Origin: Virgisporangium aliadipatigenens
Lineage (GTDB): Bacteria; Actinomycetota; Actinomycetes; Mycobacteriales; Micromonosporaceae
DNA: 64,000 nucleotides
Direction of reading: 5' to 3'
NCBI RefSeq assembly: GCF_016863615.1
Contig: NZ_BOPF01000026.1
Span: 62,001-126,000, forward strand
Positions 11,626 through 63,800 of this stretch are shown here, piece after piece. The notes beneath the pieces were generated by a model. That model saw nothing but the letters and a program-made list of their open reading frames with translations, was not told the DNA's origin and did not search any database. The stretch's first letter is position 1; each line of letters opens with the position of its first letter. The position numbers and the translations under genes are program-made.

Positions 11626-11695
11626 TCGCGGGAGGTCGGTCTATCGGGCGCAGGTACAACGTCGCGCGGGTTCAAGCGGCTGGCTGGATCCTTCA

Positions 11696-42520: not shown

Positions 42521-42532
42521 TTGGGGGGACTG

Positions 42533-45154: not shown

Positions 45155-45269
45155 TCGCCTCGTTCTCATCCGCCAGAAAACCCAGCGACAACCGACCCGG
45201 CGGTCCGAGGACCTCGCTGCTACACCCGCAAGGCCGATCCATCGCCCCGACCATCACCACGCCACGTGA

Positions 45270-45932: not shown

Positions 45933-46041
45933 CCGCTTGAGCGTTTCTCCGCCCGCTTCGGACTTCGCTGCTGCCATCGGAACCAGCCTTGCCTCATCGA
46001 AGATGACACCGCATCCAATTTCAATAGGGCGATAGTCCGGA

Positions 46042-48690
46042 CTATCGGCACAGGTCGGCAAGGACCCCCGTGGCCGCGTTGATCTGGCCGAGGATGTGGT
46101 CGTCGACCGGTTTGGTCGACTCGATGACTCCTTGGCCAAGGCCGGGGAGAACGGCGATCGTCTCACCGTCGGACAGGGAGAGCCGCCAGGTGCCGTCGGT
46201 GGCGTAGACGGCGATACCGCGACAACGCCGGTATTGGCGTGTTGCGGCGAGAAGGCGTGGCATACGTGGATCGAGGAGAGGGTCCGCGACGCCGCGCACA
46301 CCGAGGCGGACCTGGATAGCCCTGGCGCCGGGGGGTGCTTCGAGTGTGAGGTCATCGAGATAAAGCTCGGCCGCCGTACGAGCACACCACAGTTCATCAT
46401 CGATGTATGCGATGGCGTCGAGAAGTTGCTGATCAACATCAATTCGACTGATTGCGTGTCCGGTGACGGCACTAAGGTACCTGGCGGTTTCGTCGGTCGG
46501 CTCCAGCAGGCCATTGTCAAATGCGGCCATGATGATGGACTGGGCTTCCACTACGCGTTCCCGGCGGTGTGGACCAGGCTGAATGGTCAGCCAACATAAT
46601 GCCGCAGCAGCTTCGGGCAGCCATCCGGGAAGTCGTCGTTTGGCGTTCGCGCGGACTTCTTGTTCGACTTGGTTGAGCCAGCCGGGGCGGGTATCGCCCC
46701 CCGAGAATCCGCCGAGCCAGCGCAGCCAAAGATCATCAAGGTCTTCCCCGGTCAACTCCAGCCGATCGGGGGTTTGGGCAGAGGTGAGTTGAAGTTCGGC
46801 GAGCGCGCCGACGATCGTTGCGAAGTTGCCGGCCGGTGCAAGGGGCTCGACCCATGCCAGGCGTGGGTCTCCTTGTGCGCCGGCCCAGCGTCGCAAGAGG
46901 TTGCGGGCGCGTACCCGGACGCGGGCAGCGAGCCGCCATCTCCGTCGTGTCGACGCCTCCTGTGAATCGACGTCGGTTGCGTCGTCGAGGAGTCGCGCAA
47001 GAAGGGATTGCCCGGCCCGACCCGGCGCAGGCTCGGATGGAGTCCGCGCCCGTAGCGCGTCGAGAAGCTCAATGATCGGCTCGCTGGCGTCGAGGCTGTC
47101 GCTCCAGATTCTCCCGTATCGGCTCGCGCGTGGGTCACGACCGAGCTGTTCACGTTCGAGGCGTACCCATAGGTCGTCGTTGCCCTGTTCGGCTTCCTCA
47201 TCGGCCGTGACGCCGCCGGCGGAGGCGGGCGACTGCCGTTCGCTCACCTCCATCACCAAATTGCGGTGCAACCAGGCGAGCATCTTGCCGAGCGGGCTGT
47301 CGAGGTCACCAGTGGTGAGGCCGTCAGGTAGATCGTTGCTGGGCCGCGCCGTGCCGGTGAGCGCAGCCGCGAGTGCGATGGTGTCGTCCACGACCACCTG
47401 GTTGGACAGGACCGAACCGTCTGTGTCGACCACGCGAACGAGTCGCCCATGCACCGGGCCGACGGTGGCAGTTCTTCCGGAGGCGTGGCGGGTGAGCGGC
47501 TGTCGATTAGTCAGATCGTCAAGGAGCCAATCTGGCTTGGCGGCTGGCTCACAGGCCACCTCCACACGTCCGTCGTCGGTCACGACGGCGGAGATCAGGC
47601 GAACGGCGGGCGCCACAGGTTCCGGATCTGGCCTAAATGACCATGACGGGAGTTGATCGAGGGTGGCGGCGACGGCCGTAGTTTCCGGCGGTGTGAACGC
47701 CGCTCGGACCTCTTCTGCGGTGAGCTGAGTGAGGACGGCGACCTCTATATTGCCGCTGTGGCCAACGATGCGGGTCATCGCGGCTCGGGACAGGTTCGCT
47801 GATCCAGAAAGTAGCCATCCCTGATTACCGGCGACGGCACCGACCAGTTTGGCGTGCACGAACTCGTCCGGCTGGTACATGAGGATCTCGGTCGTTGCGC
47901 CGCTGGCGATCAGCCGTTCCCTGAGCCGGTTGCCGTTGACGCTGGTGGCCTTCGTGAGGAACACGCGAACGCGTCGAGGGCGTAGATCGGTAAGTAGCTG
48001 CCCGACCGCCGCCGCATCGTCGTCGTAGTACGGGGCGCTCAGCAGAAGTTCCTCGATGTCCGACGGTGTTTGGATAGCAAGAGCCGCCTTGAACTGGGAG
48101 GCGATCGAGGTGTCCAGGTTATGAATCAAAGGTGAGGCTGCCTGTGACGTACCGGCTGGTTGGGGCGGCAGCCGAGCGTCCAGATCGAGTAGCCGCTGGA
48201 CGAGGGTGGTGTCATCGACGAGGCCGACAACGCGATGAATCCATGTGCGCCAGGACGCGATGGCTGCGTCACCGATGGGGGTCCCGGATCGGAAGGCGGT
48301 GAACACCTCCTTGCCGCGATCGAGCCCGCTCATCGAGAGGTTTCCGGAGCCGACCAGCAGAGTCGCCCTCGTTCCGGTCACCGCGAGATACGTCTTGGGG
48401 TGGAACGCCTGACCGCCCGGCCGTACACCGCGCAGCAGCCAACGCCGGTTCACGGCGGCGAGGGCTTCGACCGCATCGGCGGGGAGGCGGTCGAGGCTGG
48501 CGCTGAGCCTGCGATGGTCCGCAAGGACAACGACGTTGAGCGGCGGGTCGCCCAATCGAGGTAGCAGGAACTCGTTGAACAACGGCAGGTCCACGCTGTA
48601 CGTCGTGGCCCACAACGCCGACGCGGCGCCAGTGAACAGTTCGTGGACCGGGCGGCATCGCTCCACCGGAACGGCCGCCGAGTCGGTCAT
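46042..48690 (-). CDS. Large phospholipase-D-like protein with two HKD motifs
   Basis: 882 residues, last gene of the DISARM operon as seen here. HKD motif 1 is HPKTYLAVTGTRATLLVGSG (about 98-117) with NLS after it, and motif 2 is HAKLVGAVAGNQGWLLSGSA (about 278-297) with NLSR after it. Both fit HxK-x(n)-GS-xN, so the two form one active site as in PLD nucleases. The C-terminal 500 residues are unlike known PLD proteins and rich in Trp/Arg (RWRLAARVRVRARNLLRRW). ATG at 48690 overlaps the previous stop by 4 bases. The role in DISARM is not established; nuclease function is inference. Confidence 0.8.
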   Translation of the reverse strand: MTDSAAVPVERCRPVHELFTGAASALWATTYSVDLPLFNEFLLPRLGDPPLNVVVLADHRRLSASLDRLPADAVEALAAVNRRWLLRGVRPGGQAFHPKTYLAVTGTRATLLVGSGNLSMSGLDRGKEVFTAFRSGTPIGDAAIASWRTWIHRVVGLVDDTTLVQRLLDLDARLPPQPAGTSQAASPLIHNLDTSIASQFKAALAIQTPSDIEELLLSAPYYDDDAAAVGQLLTDLRPRRVRVFLTKATSVNGNRLRERLIASGATTEILMYQPDEFVHAKLVGAVAGNQGWLLSGSANLSRAAMTRIVGHSGNIEVAVLTQLTAEEVRAAFTPPETTAVAATLDQLPSWSFRPDPEPVAPAVRLISAVVTDDGRVEVACEPAAKPDWLLDDLTNRQPLTRHASGRTATVGPVHGRLVRVVDTDGSVLSNQVVVDDTIALAAALTGTARPSNDLPDGLTTGDLDSPLGKMLAWLHRNLVMEVSERQSPASAGGVTADEEAEQGNDDLWVRLEREQLGRDPRASRYGRIWSDSLDASEPIIELLDALRARTPSEPAPGRAGQSLLARLLDDATDVDSQEASTRRRWRLAARVRVRARNLLRRWAGAQGDPRLAWVEPLAPAGNFATIVGALAELQLTSAQTPDRLELTGEDLDDLWLRWLGGFSGGDTRPGWLNQVEQEVRANAKRRLPGWLPEAAAALCWLTIQPGPHRRERVVEAQSIIMAAFDNGLLEPTDETARYLSAVTGHAISRIDVDQQLLDAIAYIDDELWCARTAAELYLDDLTLEAPPGARAIQVRLGVRGVADPLLDPRMPRLLAATRQYRRCRGIAVYATDGTWRLSLSDGETIAVLPGLGQGVIESTKPVDDHILGQINAATGVLADLCR

Positions 48691-50345
48691 CCGAGAACCT
48701 CGGTGGCGAACGCGACGCCACGATCGGTCAGCCGTGATTCGCTAGGCTCGTCGCCTTCCCACAGGCCCAGGTCCCAGGTGAGCCAGCTCAGTGGATCCGC
48801 GCGGATCGCGGCGAGTGGGAACCGCTCGATGCCGTGGTCGTAGAACCGCAGGAGCCCTTCCTCCCAACGGAACCGGAAGGTGAAGTCTGGCAGCTTGGAG
48901 TAGGCGATGCGCTCATGCACCGGGACTACGAATCTAGACACCAGCCACCACAGCGTCTCACCGAGCGAGGGCTGACCGTCGAGATGCTCACCGACAGCGG
49001 CCAGAACCTCGGCAACCGACGGCTGCCATGCCGATCTCACCCGCGACGCCTTCACCCAGCCGGGATCGGAGCGACCCTTGGTACGGCGGGCAAGTTCGAG
49101 CAGCACCACGACAGCCGAGGTGGCGGTGTCGAGACCGGCGGTCAACCACCGAAGAGTATCCAGCGACGCCGTGGCGACGTCTATGTCCTCGCCGTCCCAG
49201 TCAGGCACGGTCAACGCCGCAGGCTCCAGCGCGGCGGCGATCGCAGCCGTCGGGTAGCCGGAGGCCCAGGCGGGTGGTCCGCCAACCATGTTTGAGGCCA
49301 CTTCACGTACCTCGGCATGGGTGAGCCCGCGACCCAGATCGCGACTGCGGGCCAGGCCGGCACGGCAGAACTGCGACCAGACCGAGCAGATGACCTCCTG
49401 CCATACATCCTTGGCTATCAGCGCCGCCCACTGCCCGGCGACGAGAGCGTGCCCGTCGCTTCGCGGGTCCGGATACGACCACAACGCGTCCCGGTACGCG
49501 CGGCCGGACCAGGGCACATTTGGATCGGCAGCGACGAGGCTGAGATAGTGCCCCACGCTCCGTCGGCGCTGGACCGCACCGGCGTTCAGCGTGGCGCTAG
49601 CGCCGGGTCCGGACTCGTCGTCCTCGCGAGCAACGGGCGGGTCGCTACCGAAGATGGCGTCGTGCACGGCGTCACGTTCGTCCGGCCGCTCACGTAGCCG
49701 GCACAGGCAAGCGACCCCGGCGTATTCGTCGATGACGGCTGCGGGGACCGGCTCGCTGGTCCACATGAATCGCTGGTAGTACTCCGTGCCCTCCACCGCG
49801 CTCCGGAATGTCGACGCCAAACGTCCGGCCCGCTCGGTGGGGCGAAGGACATCGATCGGAATCGGTTCGTCGCCGAGCATGGTGCCGGCTCTGGCGACGA
49901 TGCCAAGCTCAATCAGCGGCGATCGGTAGTACAGCCCGTATCCGCCCAGGCTGCTCTCCACAGATTCCCCGCGTGGGAACGGCCCCGTCCCCTCGGCGAC
50001 GTCGCCCAGCCGCCGAGCACCGACCGGGCTCGACCCACAACCGTATGGGCAGCGCTGCACCGCGAGGCCGAGTTCCCACTCGCGTCGGCGGATGAATGTG
50101 GCTAGCGACTTACCGTCCGCCGGCAACCGTCGGACCTTGTACTCGTTGAGGAGAAACGCATGGAACAAGAAGTATCGGGCCCGTCGGGACAGTTCAAGGA
50201 TGCCCGGCAGGAGCAGCGGCATGAGCCGATCTTGGGTAGTCGTCTGCAGACCGAGCGGGTCGCGGCCCTCGTTCTCCCGCAGGGAAGCCGCGATCCAGCG
50301 AGGCGCGGGCACCTCATCCGCGACTGTGCCGGGTGCAGCCGTCAT
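48687..50345 (-). CDS. DUF6361-like protein
   Basis: 552 residues from the ATG at 50345 (GGAG upstream, 19 bases after drmC). The segment DPLGLQTTTQDRLMPLLLPG then LSRRARYFLFHAFLLNEYKV closely follows the pattern of DUF6361 proteins (target-site helix then RARYFLF). One CPYGC pair follows, and the rest is helical with WTSEPVPAAVIDEYAGVACL and TLRWLTAGLDTATSAVVVLL. DUF6361 genes often neighbour PLD-type genes, as here. No catalytic motif is visible to me. It is coupled by a 4-base overlap to the HKD protein downstream. Confidence 0.65.
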   Translation of the reverse strand: MTAAPGTVADEVPAPRWIAASLRENEGRDPLGLQTTTQDRLMPLLLPGILELSRRARYFLFHAFLLNEYKVRRLPADGKSLATFIRRREWELGLAVQRCPYGCGSSPVGARRLGDVAEGTGPFPRGESVESSLGGYGLYYRSPLIELGIVARAGTMLGDEPIPIDVLRPTERAGRLASTFRSAVEGTEYYQRFMWTSEPVPAAVIDEYAGVACLCRLRERPDERDAVHDAIFGSDPPVAREDDESGPGASATLNAGAVQRRRSVGHYLSLVAADPNVPWSGRAYRDALWSYPDPRSDGHALVAGQWAALIAKDVWQEVICSVWSQFCRAGLARSRDLGRGLTHAEVREVASNMVGGPPAWASGYPTAAIAAALEPAALTVPDWDGEDIDVATASLDTLRWLTAGLDTATSAVVVLLELARRTKGRSDPGWVKASRVRSAWQPSVAEVLAAVGEHLDGQPSLGETLWWLVSRFVVPVHERIAYSKLPDFTFRFRWEEGLLRFYDHGIERFPLAAIRADPLSWLTWDLGLWEGDEPSESRLTDRGVAFATEVLG

Positions 50346-50364
50346 GTCAGCGCTCCAACCCTCG

Positions 50365-51075
50365 TCAGACCACTCGTTCGTAGAGAACGCCGTGCTTGCT
50401 GCGCATCAGGGACTCAATCGATTCCGCGAGGCTGGTGTCGTGGACCAGCAGGCCCAGTTCAACATTGGTGTTTTCGGCGCTGTAGGAGAAGTTCGCGCTG
50501 GTCATCAGGGTGAGCGCGCGGTCGATCACGATGAACTTGGCGTGGCTGACGAGAGGTTGGTGCGCGTCGGGCAAGGTCAACGTTCGGAAGACCGTCGCTT
50601 TCGGCAGGTGCGCCGCGACGGCCGTGGGTGATCCAGCATGTGCGTCGAGGTAGACCTTCACGCTCAGGTCGGCCCGGGTGGCTGCGGCGCGTAGGGCGGG
50701 CCACATGCCCGAATGGGGGGTGAAGTTGAAGCTGGAGCAGACGATAGACATGCGGGCTTCCTCGATGAGGCGTTGCGCTTCGCTGGTAAGGCGGCCGATC
50801 GTGGCTTCGGAGCCGGGCATGGTCCAGACGGGGGTAATGGTTGTGCGGACCGAGCGGGCGCCTGCGATGGCCCGCAGCACAGCCACCGTGGTCTCCACCT
50901 GGTGCGGGCCGAGTCCTGCCTCGGTGAGCAGGCGTTTCGCTTCGCTACGGCGGGCGGTGTGGACCTCCTTCAGTGCTTGGGTGGTAGTGCTGCCGGCTTG
51001 GAGTGCCGTGGCCAGCCGCTCGGCCTCGAACGCGGTGATGAAGGCGCCGAGCGCGGCGTGCGGGTCAGCAGCCAT
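50365..51075 (-). CDS. drmC: DISARM protein DrmC, PLD-like
   Basis: 236 residues. The N-terminal 100 are helical (ALGAFITAFEAERLATALQA); the C-terminal PLD domain has SFNFTPHSGMWPALRAAA and one HKD motif, HAKFIVIDRALTLMTSANFS (about 180-199) continuing YSAENTNVELGLLV. DrmC is the phospholipase-D-family member of the DISARM core, next to DrmA and DrmB. Size, single motif and position agree. It overlaps the end of drmB by 11 bases. Confidence 0.88.
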   Translation of the reverse strand: MAADPHAALGAFITAFEAERLATALQAGSTTTQALKEVHTARRSEAKRLLTEAGLGPHQVETTVAVLRAIAGARSVRTTITPVWTMPGSEATIGRLTSEAQRLIEEARMSIVCSSFNFTPHSGMWPALRAAATRADLSVKVYLDAHAGSPTAVAAHLPKATVFRTLTLPDAHQPLVSHAKFIVIDRALTLMTSANFSYSAENTNVELGLLVHDTSLAESIESLMRSKHGVLYERVV

Positions 51076-53131
51076 CGATGGTGCCGAAGAAGCCGGGTAC
51101 CCGTTCGTCGTCGATGGTTGGCAGGGTAAGCAGGAATCGCCGGTCCAGGAACCGATTGGCGCGTTCGCAGGAAGTCTCCGAGGCGAAGCAGCAGCAGTGA
51201 CAGGCTGCCCCGTGGAGGAAGTCCTCGCCGTGTCGGGGGGTCCGCTGGCCGCAGACCGGGTCGGAGGAGCATCGGGCCGCCCGGCGTAGCGCGTCGATTA
51301 CGAGTCCTTGCAATCGTTCCGGTTGGCTGAGCGCGACCAGGCCGCCGAGGGTACCTTCGCTGTCCGAGGCGGTGGTGCAGATGAGCAGACCGGCTGCTGC
51401 TGGCCGGTCGGGGGTGGCTGGCCAGGCGTAGAGCCGTTCGCTGAGGCTGGCGGCACCGTAGCCGCACGACATCGCCATCTCCCGGATGAGGATGTGCGCG
51501 AGGGAATGGATCAGCCAGTATCGCGGGGCGGGAAACCGTGTGTTTGGGTCGATCTGGGCGGCGGTTTCGGAGAAGCGGCGGGCGAAGTTGCGGCGGTGGG
51601 CGTCGCGATGCGCGCGCCACAGGGACGACGGGAGGATCTGCGCTTCCCACGACGCGACGGCGTTCTCGTCGAGTTGTAGGAAGATGCCCTCGCCGCGGTC
51701 CTCGGTGGCTGGTACCCATGTCGGGCGGCCGTCACGGGTGAGCTTGACCAGCCGGGTGGCGAGGTCGTTGACGCGGTCCATTTCGTCGATGCGGGTGAAG
51801 CCGATCACCGCGTTGACCTTCTTCATCCGGTTCACAGCGATGACGCGGTTGACATGTTTGGGTAGTTGGTCGCCGGTGGGCATCTCGGTGACCATGAGCC
51901 CGCTTGCGTTCTCCTGCTGGGCGAACAGGCTCGGCTTTTGCAGGTAGTCCCACTCCGGTACCAGCAGCTCAACCGGATCCCACTGCCGTAGCTTCTCCTG
52001 CCGCTCCTCCTCTGACGGCGGTGGTGCGAGAGCTTCGGCTGCCGAGGCGGTCAACTCTTCGTCGGTGATGCCGCTGAGGTCGACCTTGTCGTCGAGAAGG
52101 TCCCGCAGCATGTCTGGCTTGTTGGCGTACTTGGTTAGCTTTTCCGTCGTCATGTGGGTGCGCAGCTTCGTGGCGAGCGCCGTCCGGTCTTGTTCGGCGG
52201 TACGCGGCATGACGATGATCGATTGGGTGGAGGCGAACCACAGGTTAGACGCGCCCATCATCATCAGCGACGTGCCAAGTCCGCACTTGGTGTCGAACGC
52301 GTTCAGGTGCGGGTGACGGCCCCGGCAGGCGGGCAGTTTCCGTTTCCCGGACTCGCCCTGCGCCTCGCTCATGCTGCGTCGCTGCTGGCAACGCTCGCAC
52401 GTGACGACCGCGCCCGCGCCCTGACCGACGTTGCTATCGCGGAGCTTCAGATCCGGCTGTGGCGCCGCCGGGCAGGGATTGCCGTGGTGCACCCACAGTG
52501 TGTACGGGAACTCGTCTAGGTGCCCGTTCGCGCAGGCGAGCAGGTAGCGGGCGGGCACGGCCGGGCTGCGGCGGGCCTTACCCTTCGCGCCAGCCTTCGG
52601 CTTGCCCTTCGTCCCACCGGCGATGCCGCGGCCAGGGCAACTGGCGTGTTCGAAGGTCGCCAGGTCCGGACGGAACGGATGGGTGTTGGTGTAGCTGAAC
52701 CGCGACAGCGGCCCCAGATAATCGCAACTGGTGCAGCGCAGCCACTGCGGAAAGACTCGCGCCGGAATGCCGAGGTCGGACCCCTCCTGGGACATCGCGC
52801 GGGCCTTCGGCTGCCACGGGAACGGGCGCAGTTGCTGAACCCGCGGCCCGAGATGGAGCTGCACGACCTTGAGAAGCCGCGGTTCCTCGATGGTTGGCAC
52901 GGTGGGCCTGCGTCGCCAGATCGGCTCCCAGTCATCCAGCCCGGCCGGCATGATCGAGAACTGCGGCAGGTCCATGATCGAGCCGACACCATAGGTGTAG
53001 AGCAGCGACGACGGGCGAGCCGAGCCGACCTTGGCCCGGTTTTTGGCCTGCGACTGCTCGCTTTCGGTCAGCGGATCCATCGGCTCCGACGACTCGAAGA
53101 TCATCGACAGCGGGTCAGCGTCGAGTGTCAC
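51065..53131 (-). CDS. drmB: DISARM protein DrmB (DUF1998)
   Basis: 688 residues from a GTG of a GTGA overlap with drmA. It starts with a helical tail, then VGSARPSSLLYTYGVGSIMD, the usual DrmB start. Cys pairs (CTSCDYLG, CERCQQRRS) suggest zinc binding in the first half. The C-terminal part is DUF1998-like with PRYWLIHSLAHILIREMAMS and LYAWPATPDRPAAAGLLICT, and a Cys cluster CCCFASETSCERANRFLDR. DrmB forms a complex with the DrmA helicase in DISARM. Length normal. Confidence 0.92.
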   Translation of the reverse strand: MTLDADPLSMIFESSEPMDPLTESEQSQAKNRAKVGSARPSSLLYTYGVGSIMDLPQFSIMPAGLDDWEPIWRRRPTVPTIEEPRLLKVVQLHLGPRVQQLRPFPWQPKARAMSQEGSDLGIPARVFPQWLRCTSCDYLGPLSRFSYTNTHPFRPDLATFEHASCPGRGIAGGTKGKPKAGAKGKARRSPAVPARYLLACANGHLDEFPYTLWVHHGNPCPAAPQPDLKLRDSNVGQGAGAVVTCERCQQRRSMSEAQGESGKRKLPACRGRHPHLNAFDTKCGLGTSLMMMGASNLWFASTQSIIVMPRTAEQDRTALATKLRTHMTTEKLTKYANKPDMLRDLLDDKVDLSGITDEELTASAAEALAPPPSEEERQEKLRQWDPVELLVPEWDYLQKPSLFAQQENASGLMVTEMPTGDQLPKHVNRVIAVNRMKKVNAVIGFTRIDEMDRVNDLATRLVKLTRDGRPTWVPATEDRGEGIFLQLDENAVASWEAQILPSSLWRAHRDAHRRNFARRFSETAAQIDPNTRFPAPRYWLIHSLAHILIREMAMSCGYGAASLSERLYAWPATPDRPAAAGLLICTTASDSEGTLGGLVALSQPERLQGLVIDALRRAARCSSDPVCGQRTPRHGEDFLHGAACHCCCFASETSCERANRFLDRRFLLTLPTIDDERVPGFFGTIDGC

Positions 53132-56100
53132 GCGGTCCCTCCTTCGATCGGCAGCTCCCAGCGCGGTGCATCATCAGGCTCGACCGCGAACAACCGCTCC
53201 GGCAACGGGCTCACCAACAGGTTGATCTCCGGCTGGACCTCCCGCATCGAGTGCGCGATGACGAACGGCGCCCGGTCTTTCAGATCCTGGTTCGCCTTCG
53301 CGTGCTCCGGGCTGATCAGCAGCGGCAGAAAGCTGTCGTTGTCGCCCGTGCGCTCGTACACCAGGGTCTTGCTCAGCTTCGTGGCGTACACGCCCCGGGC
53401 GCTCCACTGGTCGAGGCGGTTGGCAAGCCGTTGCTGCGCCTGCGTCGTCAGGTCGTCCAACTGGGCTGCCGCCCGGATCCTGGCGTGTAGACGGGCGATG
53501 AGGGCGGAAAGGGCGTCCTTCTCATCGCGGACCCGCCACGCACTGCGCTCCGGGGACAGCCCGTCATCCCGGTGCGCCTGCAGCACCCGCGCCGCGCTGA
53601 CCAACACCCCGTCGATGCCCCGCTCCAGAGATGTAGGCGAGAACGGCGTGACCGACAACGCCTCCACCTGGGCGTAGAACGTCTCGTGGTAGTGCCGGAA
53701 CTGCTCGAAGTGGGCCAGATCGCGAGGCCGCGCCCAGTTGCCCAGCGCGACGACTAGGCCCGGACGACCGCCATCCTCGCCCGGACGGCCGGTGTCGCGA
53801 CCAACCCGAGACGACGCCTGGATGTACTCGGCGGTGTTCTTCGGCTGCCCCACCACCAGCATCAGCCCGAGGCGCTGCACGTCCACGCCGACCTGCAGCA
53901 TCGACGTGGCCAGCACCACGTCGAACGGGTCGGCCTTCGGCCGGGCGGTCTTCTCACCCGCGTCCTGCTGTTCGAGCCGTTGCCGCATCGCGGCGGTCGT
54001 CGCGTATCCGGGGTCGAACTCCAACGCCAGGTTGTCCAGCGTGCGGCCGATGTCGACCGACGCGATGCGCGAGGTCAACTCGCCGGTGACGAGCCGGCCG
54101 TACGAACCCTGCCGGCGCGGGAAGCCCGACCCGGGCCGGGGCTGCCGCACCCGGTTCTGCACGTCGTCCGCGACGTACCGCGCCATACCGGCCAGCTCCC
54201 GGGTGGCATTGAAGTACCCGACGAGCGTCATGTAAGGATCGGCGGCGGCCCCGCTGCGGTCAAACAGCAGTTGACCGGCGAGCAGCAGCGCCTCAGCGAC
54301 ACGGATCTCGGCGCTGGACAGCCGCACACCCTGCGCGCTGACGCCGAGGTATCGCCGGCCAGGGCTGGTTGGGCCGACCGGCAGCTCCTTCGAGAAGTAG
54401 GTGTCGGCCACGTCGAGCACCTGCGGTGGGAAGATTTCCACCCCTCGCCCGTAGAGTCCGCGTACCTGGTCGTCGGCTCTGCGTACGGTCGCGGTCGACG
54501 CGACGATCATTGGCCGGACCGGGGTCCCCTCCGCCATCTCCCAGGAGGCCAGGGTTTCCACAGCGACCTCGAACAGGCCCACGGAGGTGCCCAACGCGCC
54601 GGTAATCAGATGCAGCTCGTCCTGGATGATCAGATCCGGCGGCCGGAGGCGTCCCACTGGACGTACCGTCGCGGCCGGCAGGCCGGCCTCGGCCTGGTGC
54701 CCGGTCTTGATGCTGCAACCGGCATAGTCAGGGTGCACGTAGCCATGCCGTCCGCAGCGCCGCCCAACATAGCCGAACAACGCCGCCGCCTCACCCTCCC
54801 GGGCGAGGCGGGCGAACTTGTCCACCGTCGCGATCACGAACACCGGTGGCATCCGGTAGATCTCCTCATCCACCGTCAAAACCGGCAGGCCCTCGGAAAC
54901 CTCGCCGCCCTTGGCGAACGGACACCGGCCCAGGTCGTCACCGCAGAACACCAACACCCGCCGGGTCGCCTTGACCGGCACCACGTTGGCGGCGCCGATC
55001 GGGCTGCCGCACCACGGGCAGCGTTGCACCTGCAACACCGTCAGCCGGTGCCCGCCGTAGACGTTGGCCTTGCGTAGCTGCTCGTCGGCCTCGTCCCAAC
55101 GCTTCGGGCTGACGTCCGTGCCGACCCACAACCCGATCCGGAACGGCTCGCTGCCCCAGGCTGCCGCATCACGGCGGCGTGCCAGTTCGGCCGCGCAGAC
55201 CAGCGCTGTTGCCCGCTGGAACTGCTGCGCGGTCAGCAGCCGCAGCGTGTACCGCATCAACACGGCAACCCCGTCGCGTCCGTCCAACGGCCCGTCCGAC
55301 GACGCTACAACCTTGTGCCGACGTCGAATCGCGAACGTGTAGGCGGCCAGGCCCAGGTACGCCTCGGTCTTGCCGCCACCGGTCGGGAAGAACAACAGTT
55401 CCACCCGTGACAGCTCACCGCTGCGCACTGCTGCGGTGGGATCGGTCAAGGCCGGCAGTTGCATGAGGATGAACGCCAACTGGAACGGCCGCCACGATGA
55501 CGGCTTCTCCCGCTCGGCGGCCTCGACCTGAGCACGGGCGTCCGCGAAGGACAGGTTGGGATCAGAGCTTCGCCTGGCCGAGATCTGGGAGTGGATACGT
55601 TGGTCACGCATGACCTCGTTCATAAACCGGAAGCATGCGAACGCCTCCGGCTCACCGACGACATGAGCCAGGCCGGCCGCTAGCCGCCGCTGCGCACCCC
55701 GCGCCTCGTCCACGACCTCCTCGGCCAACTCCCGTAGGTGCGCCGGAAGCTGGGCGGCCTTCGCCGCCTCCCCATCCAGCCAAATGCGGTAGCCGTCCAC
55801 GAGCGGAGCGAGGCCGTCACGAACTTGGTTGGGCGTGGCCTTTGCGAGGGCATCCATGCCCAGCAACGCGCCGTCGACCGACCGGGCCTGCGTCTGCGGC
55901 GTCTCGGCGACCGGCAGCCACGTCGTCCACACCGCCGTGGCCCGCCGCGCGCCCGGTTCAGCTTGCCAATCAACCGAACAGGTCCGCCCGACCGCGAACT
56001 CCAGACGATTGCGGTACTGAAGGTGCAACCGGCGCACCTCCTCGTCGTGCTCCGGCCACTCCTGCTCCATGACGTCACGCACAGGCAGGAACGCCGCCGC

Positions 56101-56832
56101 ACCACCCGCGTCGATGTGCAGCCTCGTCTGGAACAGCCACTCGTTCACCGGGATCGTCGGCGGTGTCTCGCGGTCGTTGACCAACGCAATCTCGATCAGT
56201 CGCCGACCAAACCGGACGTCGTCGTACGCGTCGATGCGCACGCACACCTGGCCCGTCAACACCCGCGTGTAGGTCCGCCCCGGCGTCAGCTCGACAACCG
56301 CGATCTTCTCAACGATCCCCACTGGCGTACGTCGGTACCGGCGTAATGGCCGACCCTTCTTGTCGATCTCCTCGGTCTTGACACTCTCGTAGGTACCCCA
56401 AGTCGCTGTGACTGTGAACTCGGTCAGGTCGTTCGGTACCTGGAAGCGCAAGCCCATCGACGATGGGATCATCAAGCCTTGCTTCGGCGCCTTGTCGTCG
56501 ACGTCGTCCTCGTCCGCGTCCGCGCCGTTGTCGTCAGCGGACTCGGCCGGGATGCCGCGCTGGGCGTGCACACCAGCCTCGTCGGCCCGAATGCCGACCA
56601 GACCGTAGCCGTCCTCGGCGCTCGCCGGGTCAGCGCGCTCCTCAGTCAGCTTCACCGGCGCAATGTGCCCGACCAGGTACAACTGCCGAGGGCTGACCGG
56701 CAACAACTCCTCCGGTCCACCAGCCGGGCCCAGTAGCTCCCGCTCGAGGATGTCGACCAAGTTTTCCCGGACCGTGTACGAAGTGTCGTCCGGCTCATGC
56801 TCTAGTCGAAGGCTCGGCGCGCGATCAGTCAC
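53128..56832 (-). CDS. drmA: DISARM helicase DrmA
   Basis: 1234 residues from a GTG overlapping the drmMI stop. The N-terminal 460 residues have no enzyme motif. The SF2 core shows VELLFFPTGGGKTEAYLGLA (about 482-501, Walker A), PDLIIQDELHLITGALGTS (about 735-753, DExH) and the C-terminal LMLVVGQPKNTAEYIQASSR followed by VGRDTGRPG (motif VI, about 1000-1025). A zinc-like CPWCGSP/CGDDLGRCPF lies between. DrmA is the conserved helicase of the DISARM core. Size and order match. Confidence 0.93.
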   Translation of the reverse strand: MTDRAPSLRLEHEPDDTSYTVRENLVDILERELLGPAGGPEELLPVSPRQLYLVGHIAPVKLTEERADPASAEDGYGLVGIRADEAGVHAQRGIPAESADDNGADADEDDVDDKAPKQGLMIPSSMGLRFQVPNDLTEFTVTATWGTYESVKTEEIDKKGRPLRRYRRTPVGIVEKIAVVELTPGRTYTRVLTGQVCVRIDAYDDVRFGRRLIEIALVNDRETPPTIPVNEWLFQTRLHIDAGGAAAFLPVRDVMEQEWPEHDEEVRRLHLQYRNRLEFAVGRTCSVDWQAEPGARRATAVWTTWLPVAETPQTQARSVDGALLGMDALAKATPNQVRDGLAPLVDGYRIWLDGEAAKAAQLPAHLRELAEEVVDEARGAQRRLAAGLAHVVGEPEAFACFRFMNEVMRDQRIHSQISARRSSDPNLSFADARAQVEAAEREKPSSWRPFQLAFILMQLPALTDPTAAVRSGELSRVELLFFPTGGGKTEAYLGLAAYTFAIRRRHKVVASSDGPLDGRDGVAVLMRYTLRLLTAQQFQRATALVCAAELARRRDAAAWGSEPFRIGLWVGTDVSPKRWDEADEQLRKANVYGGHRLTVLQVQRCPWCGSPIGAANVVPVKATRRVLVFCGDDLGRCPFAKGGEVSEGLPVLTVDEEIYRMPPVFVIATVDKFARLAREGEAAALFGYVGRRCGRHGYVHPDYAGCSIKTGHQAEAGLPAATVRPVGRLRPPDLIIQDELHLITGALGTSVGLFEVAVETLASWEMAEGTPVRPMIVASTATVRRADDQVRGLYGRGVEIFPPQVLDVADTYFSKELPVGPTSPGRRYLGVSAQGVRLSSAEIRVAEALLLAGQLLFDRSGAAADPYMTLVGYFNATRELAGMARYVADDVQNRVRQPRPGSGFPRRQGSYGRLVTGELTSRIASVDIGRTLDNLALEFDPGYATTAAMRQRLEQQDAGEKTARPKADPFDVVLATSMLQVGVDVQRLGLMLVVGQPKNTAEYIQASSRVGRDTGRPGEDGGRPGLVVALGNWARPRDLAHFEQFRHYHETFYAQVEALSVTPFSPTSLERGIDGVLVSAARVLQAHRDDGLSPERSAWRVRDEKDALSALIARLHARIRAAAQLDDLTTQAQQRLANRLDQWSARGVYATKLSKTLVYERTGDNDSFLPLLISPEHAKANQDLKDRAPFVIAHSMREVQPEINLLVSPLPERLFAVEPDDAPRWELPIEGGTA

Positions 56833-59800
56833 AGCAATGTCCCTTGCGCATCGTCGGCGAGCGGTTTGCGAGCGCGGCTAGGCGCAGTCGGGGGCACCTT
56901 CTTCCGTTGCGCCGCCGCCCGACGCAGGTTCTCCGCGAGCAATGAGTCCAGGATTTTCACCCGGGCGGCAGGACTAACCGTCCACCGAGTGACCTGCCGG
57001 TACGTGTGGAACCCGTGATCCAACGGCACGTCCGACCAGCCATACGCCGCCATCACCGTCTCGTCCAGTTCCACGTGAATCCGCCGCATCCTAGCTATGT
57101 CAGGGTCGTCAGCATCACTAACGCTCGGGTTGTTGACCAGGTTGTACAGCCTGGTGAGTCCCAATTTCCGGCGCAGCATGATTTCCCGCCGCTCGCCGTG
57201 GAGGATCTCGCCGATTCTTGATAAGCGTTCCGTCAATTGTGGACGCGGAAACGTCGCGAAAACTCCCGACGGGGTGTAGGTCACATCTGCACGCATGGTA
57301 GAGCCGTATTTTATCGCCCAAAGCTGGTGCGCGCTCGATGAGAGCACCGACTGCACTGCGAGCGAATCGGTTGCGAAAACGACCAACTTCTGGTCGAATA
57401 CGAACGATGTTGGGACTCGCATCGGCACCACGGTCTTGCTCACTTGTGCGATGACCAGCGCGCTATCGAGTTCAGCAATTGCCTTGCGCATCGCTGGTGC
57501 CGGACGCTTAAACTGCCACCAGAGATCTCGCAGAGCAGGGCTGCTGCTGGCGACCCTCTGCGGCTTGACGCGGGTCTCGACCGCCAGAAAAGGCGCAACG
57601 TACGTAGCTGCCACATCTTCTGATAACCCAGTGAAATCGATCACCCATCGAGACGCCGTACAGTCCGGCCTTGAATTCAAGTCCTCCCCGTTTAGATACG
57701 GAAAGAGAACATCGTTGTTGCGTTCATCTTCGGCAATCCATTCCTCTGCTTCCTTCGGATTCAGAATGAAGCCCGCACCATGCACATAGGAACCGATGAA
57801 GGCCATACCGTCGTTTTCCAGCAGCCGCTCCGGTGAACCGTCAATCTGACCGGTCGCCTCGAGCAGTGTGGAGATCCTAGGCACCACAACTCCATCAGCA
57901 ACTCGATTGGCTTGACTTGCGACCGTTGTCCGGGTGCCCCAAATCGCCGCGTATTCCAAGTTGGCACTCGTCGAAGGCCAGGGTGCGCTCTGGACGGCCC
58001 TAGTCAGCGTAAAGCCCCGGTCTACCATCTGGTCGAGGCCGACTTCACGGGTGTAACCTTGCGCGACGCTGTTAGTGGCGACAAGGCCGAGCGCTCCGGT
58101 TGGCCTCAATAGCGTGAAGGCGCGGAGAAAAAAGTACGCGACCAGGTCGGCACTGCCACGAGCACCATGGGCTACTTGATGCACGGTCCAGTCGCGCACG
58201 TTGGTGCCCAGCGCGCCCGTGATCTTCGAACCACCCAAGTAGGGTGGGTTGCCGATGACAGCATCGAAGCCACTGTTGTCGATCAATACGTCAGGGACTT
58301 CGAGTGCCCAGTGTAGCGGTTGCCACCGTTCGTAGTCGGTCTGCACGGTCGGCGTTAGTCCCGAATCCACAATGGAAGCTAGGAAGCTGGGATCGGGTGG
58401 CGTATTGCCTGGTGGGATTGCGGCGGCTACTGCATCGGCCAGGTTCTCGTAACCCTCGTCCAAGGCCCTACCGGGCTTCCCGCCGAGGCGCAATCCCGCG
58501 GCGATCACCCCGTCGGCCGCCCTACGAAGCTGGGCGGTCAGATCGTGCAACCGGTCGAGCTGGCGCCGCTTGGCGCTGGCGCTCCGTTGGGGGTCGTACT
58601 CGCGCACCTCGCTGGCCAGCTCTCGACGAATCTCCACGGCTCGGCGGATGATGCTGTCCATGTCGCGGGCGAATAGGCGGGGCTGCTGATTCTCGGGCGG
58701 GTCGACATGTAGGGCGCGCAATTGGCGCAGCTCGGTGAGTCCGAGGAGCGAGTTGCCATGCAAGATCTTGTCGTCGACGAAGGAAAATGGCAGTTCGCGG
58801 TCGAGCGACACCAGCCACAGCGACAGCTTGCACATCTCGACGGCCATCGCGTTGATGTCGGCGCCGTAGAGGCATCGGGCGACGACCTCGCGGATCGCGT
58901 GCTGGCGCAGGTCGCGGCGGTGGGCGTTGGCTGGGTCCTCTGCGGTCCACGCCTCGACCAGTCGGGCGGCGAGGTAGCGGGCGGCGGCGACGAGGAATGC
59001 GCCGGATCCGGCAGCGATGTCGGCCACCTTGAGGGCGAGGATTTCGTCGGAGTTGCGAAGCCGCCATGTGTCCCGGTCTGCGGTCTGGTGCGGTCCGGGG
59101 GAATAACAAAGTGGTTCGAGGGCGTGCTGGACGACTTCCTCCGCGAGGGACTTCGGGGTGTAGTGGGCGCCGGCGTTGCGCCGCGACGGCGTCTCGTTGA
59201 CGAGCAGGCCGCCGTCGAGGACCACTGTTGGACGGTCGCGCAGGTCCCGCCGGATGATCGTGGACCAGCGGCGCAGCCGTGCCCGCAGGGCATCGTCGTT
59301 GGCGGTCACGGCCCGCAACTGGCGGTCGGCGTCCTCACCTTGCGTGGCCGCGAGCAGTTTCGCGAGGGCGTTCACGCTGGGCGGGGAGGCGGCGGACTGG
59401 TCCGCCTTGACCCAGGCGATTATCGCGGTAGCCAACGCGGCCGGCGTCGAATGATCGTCGGCGAGCGTCTCCAGCACGGTGAGTGGGATCTCCGGTTCGG
59501 CGCCAGTGCCGCCGACGAGGCCGAGCTGGACATCCCCGGTGACCCGGATGCAGGAGTAGCCGAGCAGGCCCTCGTAGATGTATCCGATCTGTTCCACGTC
59601 GATGTCGCGGAACGAGATTCGGCGGGCGTCACCGCCTTTGAGCTGGGCCACCTGGACCGAGCGCAGCACGTGCAGCATGACCCGGTCGGAGACGGGCAGT
59701 GCGAGAGTGCCGTTGTCGTTCGAAGCGGTCAGGAAGCCGTACCGGGCTGGGTCGAACAGCGATCCGCCGTAGGCGGGCATCCGCATGTTCTCAAACGATG

Positions 59801-60893
59801 CGCCGCGGTAGAGGGCCTGGCTCGTGGCCAGGAGCCGGTGCCAGGTGAGGTACGTGCTGTCGAGGGACTCTTCGCCGTCGACCAGGCGGCGCTGTTCCAG
59901 TGCGTCGAGTTCGCCGCTGATGCCGTACCCCTGTTGGAAGAGCTGGCTTTGCGGGAGCAGGCCGCGCTCTTCGGCGAAGAGCAGGAACACGACGCGCATC
60001 ATGACGGTGACGGCGGCGGAGTAGGTTTCGTGCGGGTTGTCAGGCAGGGGATCGGTCAGGCCACGACGGCGGTGGTCTGCGGCCGTTTCGGCGAACGCCT
60101 GGATCAGCAGTTCCACGGCCCGGCGGACCTGCGCGCCGAGCGCTTCGGTGATCTCCTCGGCGGCGGCGACGGATTCCTCGAACAGCTTCGGTAGCCGCTC
60201 GCTCGGGTCGCCGCCGATGATGTACTGCCGAGCGATGACGGTGAGGAACGCGTTGCGGGTCAACGGTTCCTCGACCCAGGTCTGGGCGTCGACGATACCG
60301 GAGGCGACCATGGAGTTCTGCCGTGCGCAGACAAGAGCCCACCAGCGGCCGTCGGTGACGATGCCGATCTCGACGTCGGCCCCGCGCAGCATCGCCTCCA
60401 TCCGGTCGATAGCGGTGGCGGCCCAGCCGTCGGTACCCGTGGCGTGCAGGGTGTCGCACCGGTCCACCATGCTGACCAGTGCGCCGATGCCGTCGGGGCC
60501 GTGCAGCGCGGCGTCCGGTGTGACGGTGATCCGCCGGTCGGGAGAGGTCGCGGCCACGGCGGGCGCGCATCCGGGACCCCAGGCCAGGGACTCACGCCAG
60601 CCGACCACATCGCGCAGGACCGTCTGTACCCACGTGTCGCGGACGCTGGCGTACTTGGCCTGGACCGTCTCGTCTTCCGGGTCGATGTCGAGGGCTTCCC
60701 AGGCGTGGTCGAACGCAGGCTTCGCCTCGCGCAGCGCGTCGAGCCGCTCGGGGGCCAGCGTGGGGATGCCCTGCGGCCATACCCGCTTCAGCGGTGGGAT
60801 GGCCAGGAACGGGCCGTCGGTCTCGACCAGTTCCAGCCAGGCGCGGTGCAGTTCGGCGGCGGTCTTCGGGCGGAAGGTTCGGGTGGTCCGCAT
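56829..60893 (-). CDS. drmMI: DISARM adenine methyltransferase DrmMI
   Basis: 1354 residues from the ATG that shares a base with the drmD stop (TGATG). The frame open upstream to 61568 is the drmD shadow. Motif I is VADIAAGSGAFLVAA (about 627-641) and the catalytic motif IV is VIGNPPYLGGSK (about 881-892), the order of type I/IIG N6-adenine methyltransferases. The N-terminal 600 residues and a C-terminal target-recognition-like region complete it, like the class 1 DISARM methylase that marks host DNA. No nuclease motif (PD-ExK) seen. It separates class 1 from class 2 DISARM. Confidence 0.92.
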   Translation of the reverse strand: MRTTRTFRPKTAAELHRAWLELVETDGPFLAIPPLKRVWPQGIPTLAPERLDALREAKPAFDHAWEALDIDPEDETVQAKYASVRDTWVQTVLRDVVGWRESLAWGPGCAPAVAATSPDRRITVTPDAALHGPDGIGALVSMVDRCDTLHATGTDGWAATAIDRMEAMLRGADVEIGIVTDGRWWALVCARQNSMVASGIVDAQTWVEEPLTRNAFLTVIARQYIIGGDPSERLPKLFEESVAAAEEITEALGAQVRRAVELLIQAFAETAADHRRRGLTDPLPDNPHETYSAAVTVMMRVVFLLFAEERGLLPQSQLFQQGYGISGELDALEQRRLVDGEESLDSTYLTWHRLLATSQALYRGASFENMRMPAYGGSLFDPARYGFLTASNDNGTLALPVSDRVMLHVLRSVQVAQLKGGDARRISFRDIDVEQIGYIYEGLLGYSCIRVTGDVQLGLVGGTGAEPEIPLTVLETLADDHSTPAALATAIIAWVKADQSAASPPSVNALAKLLAATQGEDADRQLRAVTANDDALRARLRRWSTIIRRDLRDRPTVVLDGGLLVNETPSRRNAGAHYTPKSLAEEVVQHALEPLCYSPGPHQTADRDTWRLRNSDEILALKVADIAAGSGAFLVAAARYLAARLVEAWTAEDPANAHRRDLRQHAIREVVARCLYGADINAMAVEMCKLSLWLVSLDRELPFSFVDDKILHGNSLLGLTELRQLRALHVDPPENQQPRLFARDMDSIIRRAVEIRRELASEVREYDPQRSASAKRRQLDRLHDLTAQLRRAADGVIAAGLRLGGKPGRALDEGYENLADAVAAAIPPGNTPPDPSFLASIVDSGLTPTVQTDYERWQPLHWALEVPDVLIDNSGFDAVIGNPPYLGGSKITGALGTNVRDWTVHQVAHGARGSADLVAYFFLRAFTLLRPTGALGLVATNSVAQGYTREVGLDQMVDRGFTLTRAVQSAPWPSTSANLEYAAIWGTRTTVASQANRVADGVVVPRISTLLEATGQIDGSPERLLENDGMAFIGSYVHGAGFILNPKEAEEWIAEDERNNDVLFPYLNGEDLNSRPDCTASRWVIDFTGLSEDVAATYVAPFLAVETRVKPQRVASSSPALRDLWWQFKRPAPAMRKAIAELDSALVIAQVSKTVVPMRVPTSFVFDQKLVVFATDSLAVQSVLSSSAHQLWAIKYGSTMRADVTYTPSGVFATFPRPQLTERLSRIGEILHGERREIMLRRKLGLTRLYNLVNNPSVSDADDPDIARMRRIHVELDETVMAAYGWSDVPLDHGFHTYRQVTRWTVSPAARVKILDSLLAENLRRAAAQRKKVPPTAPSRARKPLADDAQGTLL

Positions 60894-63800
60894 CAGTGTG
60901 CTCCTCCGCGGCGGGCGTCGGCCGGGGTGAGGGCGAAGACCACTGCGGCGGCGGTGGTGTGCGGTTTGACCTCGCGGTACCGCTCGGTGATCGCCGCGAC
61001 TTCGCGGTGTTCCTCGTCGCCGAGTTCGTCGAGGCGGCGGCGCATCGCGTCGATGTCGCGGCGGCGCTGCCGTTGCTGGTCGTCCGGGAACAGGGCCAGT
61101 TGTGCCTGCATCTCCGCGCTGGTGAGCTGTTCCAGTGACTCGTTCAGGTTGCGGCGGAAGGCGGCGAAGATCTCCCGCGCCCGGGTGGTGTCGGCGTCTT
61201 GGCGCTTCGCCAGTTGCTCGCTGACGCGCTGATGGCGGCCCTCGGCGCGTCGGGTCATCGAATCGAGCAGTCGAGCACGTAGCGGGGAGTCCGGTTGATT
61301 CCACTCTCGTGTCAGGTCGGCTCGGATGTCGTCGGCAGCCAGGGTCAGCCGTTCGGCGTCGAGCGCCTGGTCGAGGAGGTGCTCCGCGCGTTCCTCGGCG
61401 ATGGCGCGGCGACCGCGAAGGCGTACCCCGGCCAGGAAGATCTCCTCGTGTAGCCGAAGCCCACCCCGGCCAACGAGCACCATGCGGGTGACAGCGGCGA
61501 CGAAGGACTCTTCCAGCTCGTCCACGACGACGGCGGTGACCCGGTGTAGTGGGGCGTCGGCGCTCCACAGCGATCGGCGGAGCAGGCGTTGGGCCTTCTT
61601 CACCAACGGATGCCCGAGGTGGACGTAGACCAGATCCTTACGTCCGGCCGTGGCCTTGTCGTCAAACGTGATGGGGCGTAGCACTCCGGGCTCGGAACGG
61701 GTGTCCAAACCTTTCAAGGTGGACTGCCAGGCCGGGCCGAGTGCCGGCACGGTGAATACGGCGGCGTCGGTGCGGTCGTCGCCGGCCTCGACCAGCGCCG
61801 GCTGGTGGCTAATTCGCAGGGCGGTGTCGACCACTCGACGCAGGTTGGCCGGGTCCAGATGCATCTGTGCTCGGCTTTCGGCGTAACCCTGCTCAAGTTG
61901 GGTCAGCCGGCTGTTCAGGTCTAACCCGCCGGCCAACGCTTTGTTGATCACGCTGTTGCCGTCGAGCGGGGTCTTCTTGCGCCGGGCGGTCCTGGTCCGC
62001 GTGAAGTGGTCCTGGATCTCTTCGGCGATGACCTGGTTAACGGAGCCGAGGTCCCGGGCGACCGTGACTACCTTCTTCGCGATGCGGCCCATGAACTCCA
62101 TGTCTGCGGCGTACGTCGTCGAGGACCGGTCCGGGGCGAACTGGAAGATCAGTGGGGTTTCGTGCTGGCCATACCGGTCGATCCGGCCGATGCGCTGTTC
62201 CAGCCGCGACGGGTTGAACGGGATGTCCAGATTGATGAGCCGATGGCAGTGGTCCTGCAGGTCGATGCCCTCACCAGCCGCATCGGTCGCCAGTAGGATT
62301 CGCACCGGGTTCTTTGCGGGCTCCGTCGTGAAGTGCTCCCGGATCAGTTCGCGTTCCTCGGTCGGCGTCTCGCCCTGGATGATTTCCAGCACGTCGCCGT
62401 ACCCCTGTTGGGTCAGCACGCGGTGCACCCACTCCAGGGTGTGCGCGTACTCGGTGAACACCACGACGCGCTCGTTGGACCAGAAGCCACCCGGTCGGCA
62501 GATCGCATCCAACGTCGTGATCAACTCGCCGAGCCGGGAGTCTGGTCGGCTCTCGAAACCCAACCCCCACTCGGCCAGCCTCTGCAACTCTCCCGGCTGA
62601 GCGGCAACGAGCGGGTCGGTGGACTTGCTGTGCCGCAGGACCGTCGCCTCGTCCTGCTCCCACAGCCCTTCTTCCTCGTCGGACTGGCCCTCACCGAGGA
62701 TGTCGTCGTAGTCGAAGTCCGTCGGTGCCCGCCCGGTGGAGCGGGCCGCGAGGTACGAACTCAGCGTCATGCCGAACGCCCACGGGCTGGACAGGAACCG
62801 CTTCTTGAACAGCATCGCGGTGATGTCGCCGGACGCGCCGGTGCCATTGGCCTTCGCGCTGTCGGTCAGGATACGGTCCAGCAGGGCGAACATCTCCTGC
62901 TCGTCCGCGTGCGGGGTGAACGGGATGACCCGCAGTTCGCGTGGCCGAAAACCCTTCTCCGGCAGGTCCGACTTCAACCGGCGGACCGTCACGTCGCGCA
63001 GTGCCCGCTCGTCCAGCAGCGCACCCCGGCTGAACCGTCGTGAGTCGATCATCTCTAGCAGCGCCGTGAACGACTCTGGGTGCCCGTTGTGCGGGGTGGC
63101 GCTCAGGAAGAGGCGATGCTCGCACTTGTCCGCCAGGTCCCGTACCGCGATCGTGCGCTGCGTGTCCACCGCATATCCGCGCCCACCCCCAGCCGCCGAT
63201 GGGCTGGCCGGCGCAACGTGATGAGCCTCGTCCACGATCAGGATGTCGAACGCGTACCGCCGGGCGGTCTTCGTACTGGCGGCCTGCGCGTAGACATCAC
63301 GCAGCATCCGCTGCGCCCGCACCTGGGGCAGCCAGGCCATGCTGACGATCACTCGCGGGTACAACTGGAACGGGTTCGCGTGCAGGCCGTAGCGGCGCCG
63401 CACGTCCCGCATCATCTCGCTATTGATGATCGTGAAGTCGAGACCGAACTTGTCCCGCATCTCGTCCTGCCACTTCAGCGCCAGGCTCGGCGGGCACACC
63501 ACAATCGCGGTTCGCGCCCGATGCCGCAGCAGCAACTCCTGCACCACCAAGCCCGCTTCGACCGTCTTGCCAAGGCCGACGTCGTCGGCCAACAGCAGGT
63601 TCGTCCTCGGCGCGGACAACGCCCGGCGCAGCGGCTCCAACTGGTACGCCTCGACGGCGACACCGCTGTGGAACGGCGCTTGCAAGCTACGGTCGTCGGC
63701 CGAGGTGACCGCGCCCCAGCGCATCGCGTCCACGAACCCTGCGAGGGTGTTCGGGTCGTCGAACGCGTCCGGGTTGATCTGCGTCGGTAGACCCTGCGCG

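Follow-up and report, generated by a model that had tools for sequence, protein, structure and literature searches.

Two genes, orfA and orfB, close a class 1 DISARM (defence island system associated with restriction-modification) operon in Virgisporangium aliadipatigenens. We propose, with a probability of roughly 55%, that they form a mobile two-gene nuclease module, a relative of the ZacA-ZacB part of the Azaca system lacking ZacC, which was captured behind drmC and adds a nuclease to DISARM. The window, that is, the whole stretch of DNA analysed, comprises 64,000 nucleotides of contig NZ_BOPF01000026.1 (positions 62,001 to 126,000), and the tightly packed operon runs along its minus strand in the order drmD-drmMI-drmA-drmB-drmC-orfA-orfB. 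After the capture, the pair would most likely have come to be transcribed and translated together with DISARM. DrmAB or DrmD would open or hold unmodified phage DNA, on which the pair could act as an extra nuclease. This mode of action appears the most likely one because no Azaca helicase adjoins the pair and because the pair is frequently found in operons of ATP-driven DNA translocases, namely DISARM, BREX (bacteriophage exclusion) 2, type I restriction-modification (R-M), Zorya and SbcCD.

Azaca was reportedly first described by Millman et al. in 2022; the gene names ZacA, ZacB and ZacC follow PADLOC. When compared by hhalign, the orfB family (16 sequences) matched ZacB (four sequences) with a probability of 98.6% and an expectation value (E) of 1.1e-15 over 279 columns, which cover both half-sites of the phospholipase D (PLD) type. 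The orfA family (19 sequences) matched ZacA (four sequences) with a probability of 91.8% and E 7.5e-7 over about 110 N-terminal columns. With the PADLOC models, the orfB protein of the window matched ZacB at E 2.9e-10, and its orfA protein matched ZacA at E 6.8e-6 over 74 residues (20-93). By these profile comparisons, the pair is distantly related to the AB half of Azaca but has no ZacC next to it, and orfB is counted as a ZacB homologue at the level of distant homology and not of the family. ZacC was not found beside the pair in the window; the DrmD of the window is related to ZacC, but it is not adjacent to the pair. The relation between these two helicases is seen in the true Azaca loci L105 and L107, where ZacA, ZacB and ZacC are all recognised by PADLOC at E 2.3e-120 or better and the DrmD models match ZacC as well (E 6.8e-11 and 1.4e-11). 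In two further loci used for comparison, L106 and L108, ZacA is found at E 1e-100 or better, ZacB aligns, and ZacC is assigned by position and size only. The ZacA model has matches in 6 of 245 other genomes of the class. The pair was also considered as Azaca itself; this was rejected, as ZacC is not adjacent and the ZacA match is weak.

The orfB protein has the PLD-type signature, two conserved H-x-K half-sites with S-x-N downstream of each: H97-x-K99...S115-x-N117 and H279-x-K281...S297-x-N299. It matches PLDc_2 at E 2.8e-6, and the reading of the initial annotation, a PLD protein with two HKD motifs, holds. In an alignment of 26 orfB proteins, some rows of which are near-copies, residues H97, K99, N117, E128, H279, K281, S297, N314 and E316 are invariant, while S115 and N299 are kept in 25. 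Judging from these motifs, the two half-sites most likely come together in a single PLD-type active site for DNA cleavage. The orfA protein had been described as DUF6361-like. A match with this Pfam family is indeed seen, but it lies under the gathering cut-off (15.8 against 25 bits, E 0.0071), and only three of the 19 members of the orfA family match DUF6361 at E of 0.01 or below. Four residues, R57, R260, W306 and R515, are common to all 27 orfA-like proteins of the orfA tree. The orfA protein is the regular partner of orfB; from the pairing and the gene overlap, it probably serves in substrate binding or control, and the two proteins may form a complex. A sequence search of the PDB gave three matches for orfB, none below E 0.29, and none for orfA.

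It is important to note that the two genes occur as a unit. Of the 34 loci with an orfB match, 32 have an orfA-like gene immediately before orfB and in the same orientation, usually with the two genes overlapping by a few bases. In the other two, L092 and L094, only pieces of orfB are present and orfA was not found. Some of the loci are not independent: L140 and L147 share an orfB accession, L087 is a near-copy of L089, and a close relationship is probable within L138/L139 and within L007/L143. The 32 pair loci comprise the window, 18 regions from plasmids (L007-L014 and L138-L147), eight class-level regions (L086-L091, L093 and L095), two from Actinoplanes (L096 and L097) and three phylum-level regions (L135, which is also L194, L136 and L137). 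The orfA call is based on an independent profile or BLAST match in L012, L086-L091, L093, L095-L097 and L135-L137, and on position and size in the other plasmids, seven of which built the first profile, while six of L138-L147 entered the trees. Left out of the pair set were L092, L094, a match in genome G021, the weak matches of the phylum search below G768, the plasmid matches H46 and H56, and two of the three copies from Myroides. The hosts belong to the Actinomycetota, Alpha- and Betaproteobacteria and Bacteroidota, and one copy is carried by a haloarchaeal plasmid (L146).

With the orfB of the window as query, matches were obtained in 11 of 394 genomes of the class, its own included. The orfA query matched two of 298 genomes of the order (its own and one weak match) and, within the genus, only its own genome out of three. 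On plasmids, tblastn gave no match for this orfA at E 1e-3, nor for that of the actinobacterial genome G667 at 1e-5. As tblastn misses the orfA-like genes that adjoin the plasmid orfB matches, pairwise comparison is not sensitive enough for orfA. Carriage of the pair by phages was considered and discarded: four scans of viral contigs, which detect only close relatives, and a tblastn search of phage records with orfB gave no relative.

Some copies show features of their own. The orfB gene is broken into separate frames in L093 (16716-18558) and L094 (8452-10276), which suggests decaying copies. In the Sphingopyxis plasmids L138 and L139, a third gene of 191 amino acid residues overlaps the end of orfB (11373-11948 and 11367-11942, respectively), and an AbiEii-like gene lies upstream of the pair. 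The archaeal pair of the Halorussus plasmid (L146, 6899-11163) has other residues at the aligned positions N299 and D223, and a TmtA-like gene and an integrase are located upstream of it.

The genomic neighbourhoods of the pair are varied. In 12 of the 32 loci, a count given without a background rate, the pair shares its strand with a run of genes that includes a helicase, translocase or methyltransferase, and is either embedded in that run or no more than about 350 bases away from it. DISARM provides this setting in the window and in L136. In L088 (1-18635, genome G074) the pair is inserted in a BREX 2 operon, pglW-pglX-[pair]-pglY-pglZ, with 2.2 kilobases (kb) between pglX and orfA and 42 bases between orfB and the open reading frame (ORF) of pglY. 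Type I R-M genes accompany it in L013 (between hsdS and hsdR), L086 (where it starts 95 bases downstream of an HsdR) and L145 (with hsdS-hsdR and two further genes ahead of it). In L009 the pair follows ZorD of Zorya by 347 bases, and in L096 (3876-12649, Paractinoplanes maris) it continues a series of overlapping ORFs that starts with sbcD and sbcC, the overlap with sbcC being 4 bases. The remaining settings are DrmD plus a gene of 587 residues (L140 and L147), a DNA methylase and a type III-like restriction enzyme that begin 45 bases after the pair (L142), and an Eco57I methylase followed by an SNF2 helicase that carries a PLD (HKD) domain at its N-terminus, 264 bases before the pair (L194, 8003-15369, genome G912). 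Such genes are nearby on the opposite strand in L014 and L089. The initial annotation had proposed to look for the pair away from DISARM, and it is found there, both alone and beside BREX 2, type I R-M, Zorya and SbcCD; this recurrence and the link to ZacA and ZacB of Azaca lie outside what that annotation contained.

Three surveys addressed the presence of the pair at other DISARM loci. The drmC model NF038319 exceeded its cut-off in 29 of 394 class genomes, own included, and none of 30 other drmC regions (L056-L085, of which L085 is below the cut-off) had the pair. The drmB model NF038324 gave matches in 23 of 296 genomes of the phylum, own included; among the loci new to this survey, the only one with the pair is L136 in G667, and the other 21 (L173-L193) are without it. 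When the drmB of the window was compared with 66 genomes of the family, 18 matched, own included, and the pair was absent from all 11 regions analysed (L216-L226). The 63 other DISARM loci were reduced to 59 informative ones by removing L183, L218, L223 and L224, which have too little downstream DNA; L078, L085 and L180 were counted with only about 2 kb past drmC, and L214 and the remaining drmB matches of the family are outside the count. The pair is carried by one of these 59 drmB/drmC loci and missing from 58, although many of the 59 are less like the DISARM of the window. For the 14 informative loci with drmB at 650 bits or more against that of the window (L073, L076-L082, L084, L136, L216, L217, L219 and L220) the number is again one. 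The nearest DISARM relatives, G949 and G972 (drmB 79%, drmC 70%), have no pair in 5.7 and 9.4 kb downstream. In L178, scored as lacking the pair, an ORF of 380 residues about 9 kb downstream of drmC weakly matches the orfB profile (E 2.1e-7), with no orfA. The drmC ORFs of L059, L174, L176, L177 and L179 weakly match the orfB or ZacB profile, as PLD proteins do. At the loci surveyed, the pair does not regularly follow drmC. The pair is not restricted to the genome of the window either; this was rejected when the phylum search, after 0 of 30 drmC regions at class level, led to G667.

G667 belongs to another actinobacterial class. Its full class 1 DISARM (L136 and L195) has the order drmD-drmMI-drmA-drmB-drmC-orfA-orfB, with the pair in the same slot after drmC and 4-base overlaps at both new junctions. 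The protein identities between the two operons are 70.4% for drmD, 60.7% for drmMI, 67.4% for drmA, 67.7% for drmB, 49.4% for drmC, 31.7% for orfA and 27.4% for orfB. Two separate captures are favoured because the DISARM proteins are 49-70% identical and those of the pair only 27-32%. In a careful orfA tree of 27 rows, the window groups with two Actinoplanes (support 100/100) and G667 with L135, L093 and L137 (99/98). The DISARM label requires at least two changes on this tree, and a single change was found in 0% of 200 bootstrap trees. A quick orfB tree also places the window and G667 apart, with the wider clade unsupported. The nearest kin of the window pair are those of the two Actinoplanes (81-90%), which have no DISARM in 20-23 kb; one of them follows sbcCD. 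From these comparisons, the pair has probably been captured twice by DISARM. Behind the pair of G667 (L136, 4832-7783) are a PbeA-like helicase, the N-terminus of which is of the winged-helix type, and a gene of 233 residues without a family match, and a further drmAB locus of the same genome (L191) is without the pair.

Several points weigh against the explanation preferred here. The resemblance of orfA to ZacA is confined to the N-terminal columns. AlphaFold models of both proteins, made from three-row alignments, were unusable (predicted local distance difference test, pLDDT, 34.6 and 30.5), so no fold or interface backs a coupling of the pair to DISARM. Both orfA groups containing a DISARM-linked copy fall in one supported clade of seven rows (98/97), which makes a single old gain with later losses conceivable; the other five rows have no DISARM operon in the DNA examined, with L135 placed after drmMI- and drmD-related genes. 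No recognised translocase operon adjoins the pair in 18 of the 32 loci, whose neighbours were scanned in part, so the pair probably does not depend strictly on a borrowed engine. Some neighbourhoods may also be plain stacking of defence genes, which tend to cluster. Because copies exist without a recognised engine, the pair may work alone as well, and a serious rival is that it is a complete defence system which shares only a promoter with DISARM and makes no protein contacts with it. The plasmid and chromosome copies without such an operon, the close kin without DISARM and the varied neighbours all speak for this passenger role, and we regard it as a real possibility, if not the leading one. 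However, the 12 loci in which the pair is placed within or at the end of a translocase-type operon on the same strand, including BREX 2, the same slot in two DISARMs, and Azaca itself, which couples its AB half to a DrmD-related helicase, are less readily reconciled with it.

The initial annotation had left a choice between an independent defence module that the operon acquired and a real extension of DISARM. The module and its acquisition are supported by the family of 32 loci, the kin without DISARM and the 58 of 59 loci that lack the pair; its role in defence is putative. An extension, in which an Actinomycetota subtype of DISARM would use the pair as functional subunits, with drmC and orfB each being a specialised PLD nuclease, is not supported as a general statement and is very unlikely. 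The colinear G667 operon, a second case in the same slot with its two 4-base junctions, and the common seven-row clade are in its favour, but the single positive locus among 59, the lack of the pair in G949 and G972, the separate placement of the two copies inside that clade and the DISARM-free sisters of the window pair are against it. The pair as a standard DISARM part was rejected on the same count and because the two DISARM-linked copies are not sisters. It is also improbable that orfB is a self-targeting nuclease held by orfA and freed when DISARM is attacked or overwhelmed, DISARM then guarding the pair. The two-gene coupling with orfA first, the conserved nuclease motifs and the plasmid copies would suit such an abortive toxin and partner; no sign of toxicity or restraint was seen in this analysis, and the mechanism of the related Azaca is termed unknown in the accessible text of PMC10482375. 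The capture of a nuclease module by DISARM could be one case of a wider pattern, in which the pair is an exchangeable effector taken up time and again by ATP-driven defence machines of unrelated kinds (DISARM, BREX type 2, type I R-M and Zorya, as well as operons of the SbcCD and DrmD types) and put to work on the DNA that these translocate, with Azaca as the version that has its own engine. This generalisation is tentative and, as it stands, rather unlikely.

The features of the operon are listed in Table 1. The seven minus-strand genes are arranged as the initial annotation had read them: orfA and orfB share four bases (48687-48690, ATGA), a gap of 19 bases separates the drmC stop from orfA, and the overlaps measured upstream are 11 bases (drmC/drmB), 4 bases (drmB/drmA) and 4 bases (drmA/drmMI). 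The class 1 DISARM gene set it named is complete, since all five drm genes are recognised by PADLOC; four of them exceed their NCBIfam cut-offs, and drmMI has no NCBIfam DISARM match. The drmMI ORF as called has 1579 residues and its profile match begins at residue 235, which puts the true start inside the ORF, near the drmD stop. The drmD ORF has 1056 codons in the genome and starts 63 bases outside the window. The long ORFs upstream of it on the same strand are an amidohydrolase, a hexapeptide transferase and an ORF of 935 residues without a family match, so no further DISARM gene was seen there. A simple scan of 45200-51500, with the sigma-70 consensus as the only promoter model and terminator-like matches at chance level, gave no promoter-like and no minus-strand terminator-like site at the drmC-orfA junction. 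The last gene of the operon is orfB, and its left-hand neighbour (45270-45932) lies on the opposite strand and has no Pfam match. This neighbour is the 220-residue member of a plus-strand pair (42521-45932) pointing at the end of the DISARM operon; the other member is an FtsK/SpoIIIE-type protein of 877 residues, the ATPase part of which matches PADLOC SspH and mad8.

Table 1. Genes of the DISARM operon in the window, with the matches that identify them.
Gene	Position	Strand	Description	Evidence
orfB	46042..48690	-	882 residues; ZacB-like; two PLD half-sites; long C-terminal part, fold unassigned	PLDc_2, PADLOC ZacB, hhalign
orfA	48687..50345	-	552 residues; ZacA-like, DUF6361-like N-terminus	PADLOC ZacA, hhalign
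drmC	50365..51075	-	PLD protein of DISARM class 1	NF038319, 160.5 bits (cut-off 133)
drmB	51065..53131	-		NF038324, 669.4 bits (cut-off 240)
drmA	53128..56832	-	Helicase	NF038325, 1362.1 bits (cut-off 950)
drmMI	56829..61568	-	Methyltransferase ORF	PADLOC DrmMI PDLC02643, 1644.8 bits, residues 235-1561
drmD	60893..64000, past right window edge	-	SNF2-like helicase	NF038317, 1233.6 bits (cut-off 610)

On the question of which nuclease acts downstream of DrmAB, the accessible text of Bravo et al. (PMC9142583) reports that DrmC is dispensable and does not co-purify with DrmAB, and suggests that other PLD nucleases may be recruited. The operon of the window fits this recruitment proposal without proving it. 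A candidate is now found behind drmC in two genomes, apparently through separate captures, and this makes the question testable. Since this small module recurs in settings of BREX 2, type I R-M, Zorya and the SbcCD type, it could be used to examine whether translocase-based immune systems have interchangeable effectors in common. In the open-access literature searched, which leaves subscription papers mostly outside its scope, no description of the pair in DISARM and no mention of DUF6361 was found. The main text, as far as accessible, of a preprint on YprA helicases in DISARM relatives (PMC12458937) is without Azaca, ZacA or DUF6361.

The five standard genes of class 1 DISARM stand immediately upstream of the pair on the same strand, and the two added genes distinguish the window from nearly all the informative loci surveyed. 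The nearest precedent is Shield, where relatives of the stand-alone defence protein ShdA are embedded within about 70 DISARM-like operons of Pseudomonas according to the available portion of PMC10270631; in that account, however, ShdA is an unrelated protein with an RmuC domain, encoded by one gene and reported in Pseudomonas only. The PADLOC candidate PDC-M27 is weakly similar, orfB matching PDC-M27B at E 3.3e-4, but the match spans only 85 orfB residues and orfA has none. In the accessible parts of the respective papers, a PLD-like domain is ascribed to Azaca (PMC10952713) and ZacC is counted among the defence helicases (PMC12278908). Azaca and the pair have the A-then-B gene order in common, and their proteins are distantly homologous, in the case of orfA over the N-terminal part. 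They differ in that ZacC follows ZacA-ZacB while no such gene follows orfA-orfB, in the length of the proteins (552 residues for orfA against 400-486 in L105-L108, and 882 for orfB against 580-639), and in the strength of the PADLOC ZacB match, which for the true members reaches E 9.4e-173 and 9e-158.

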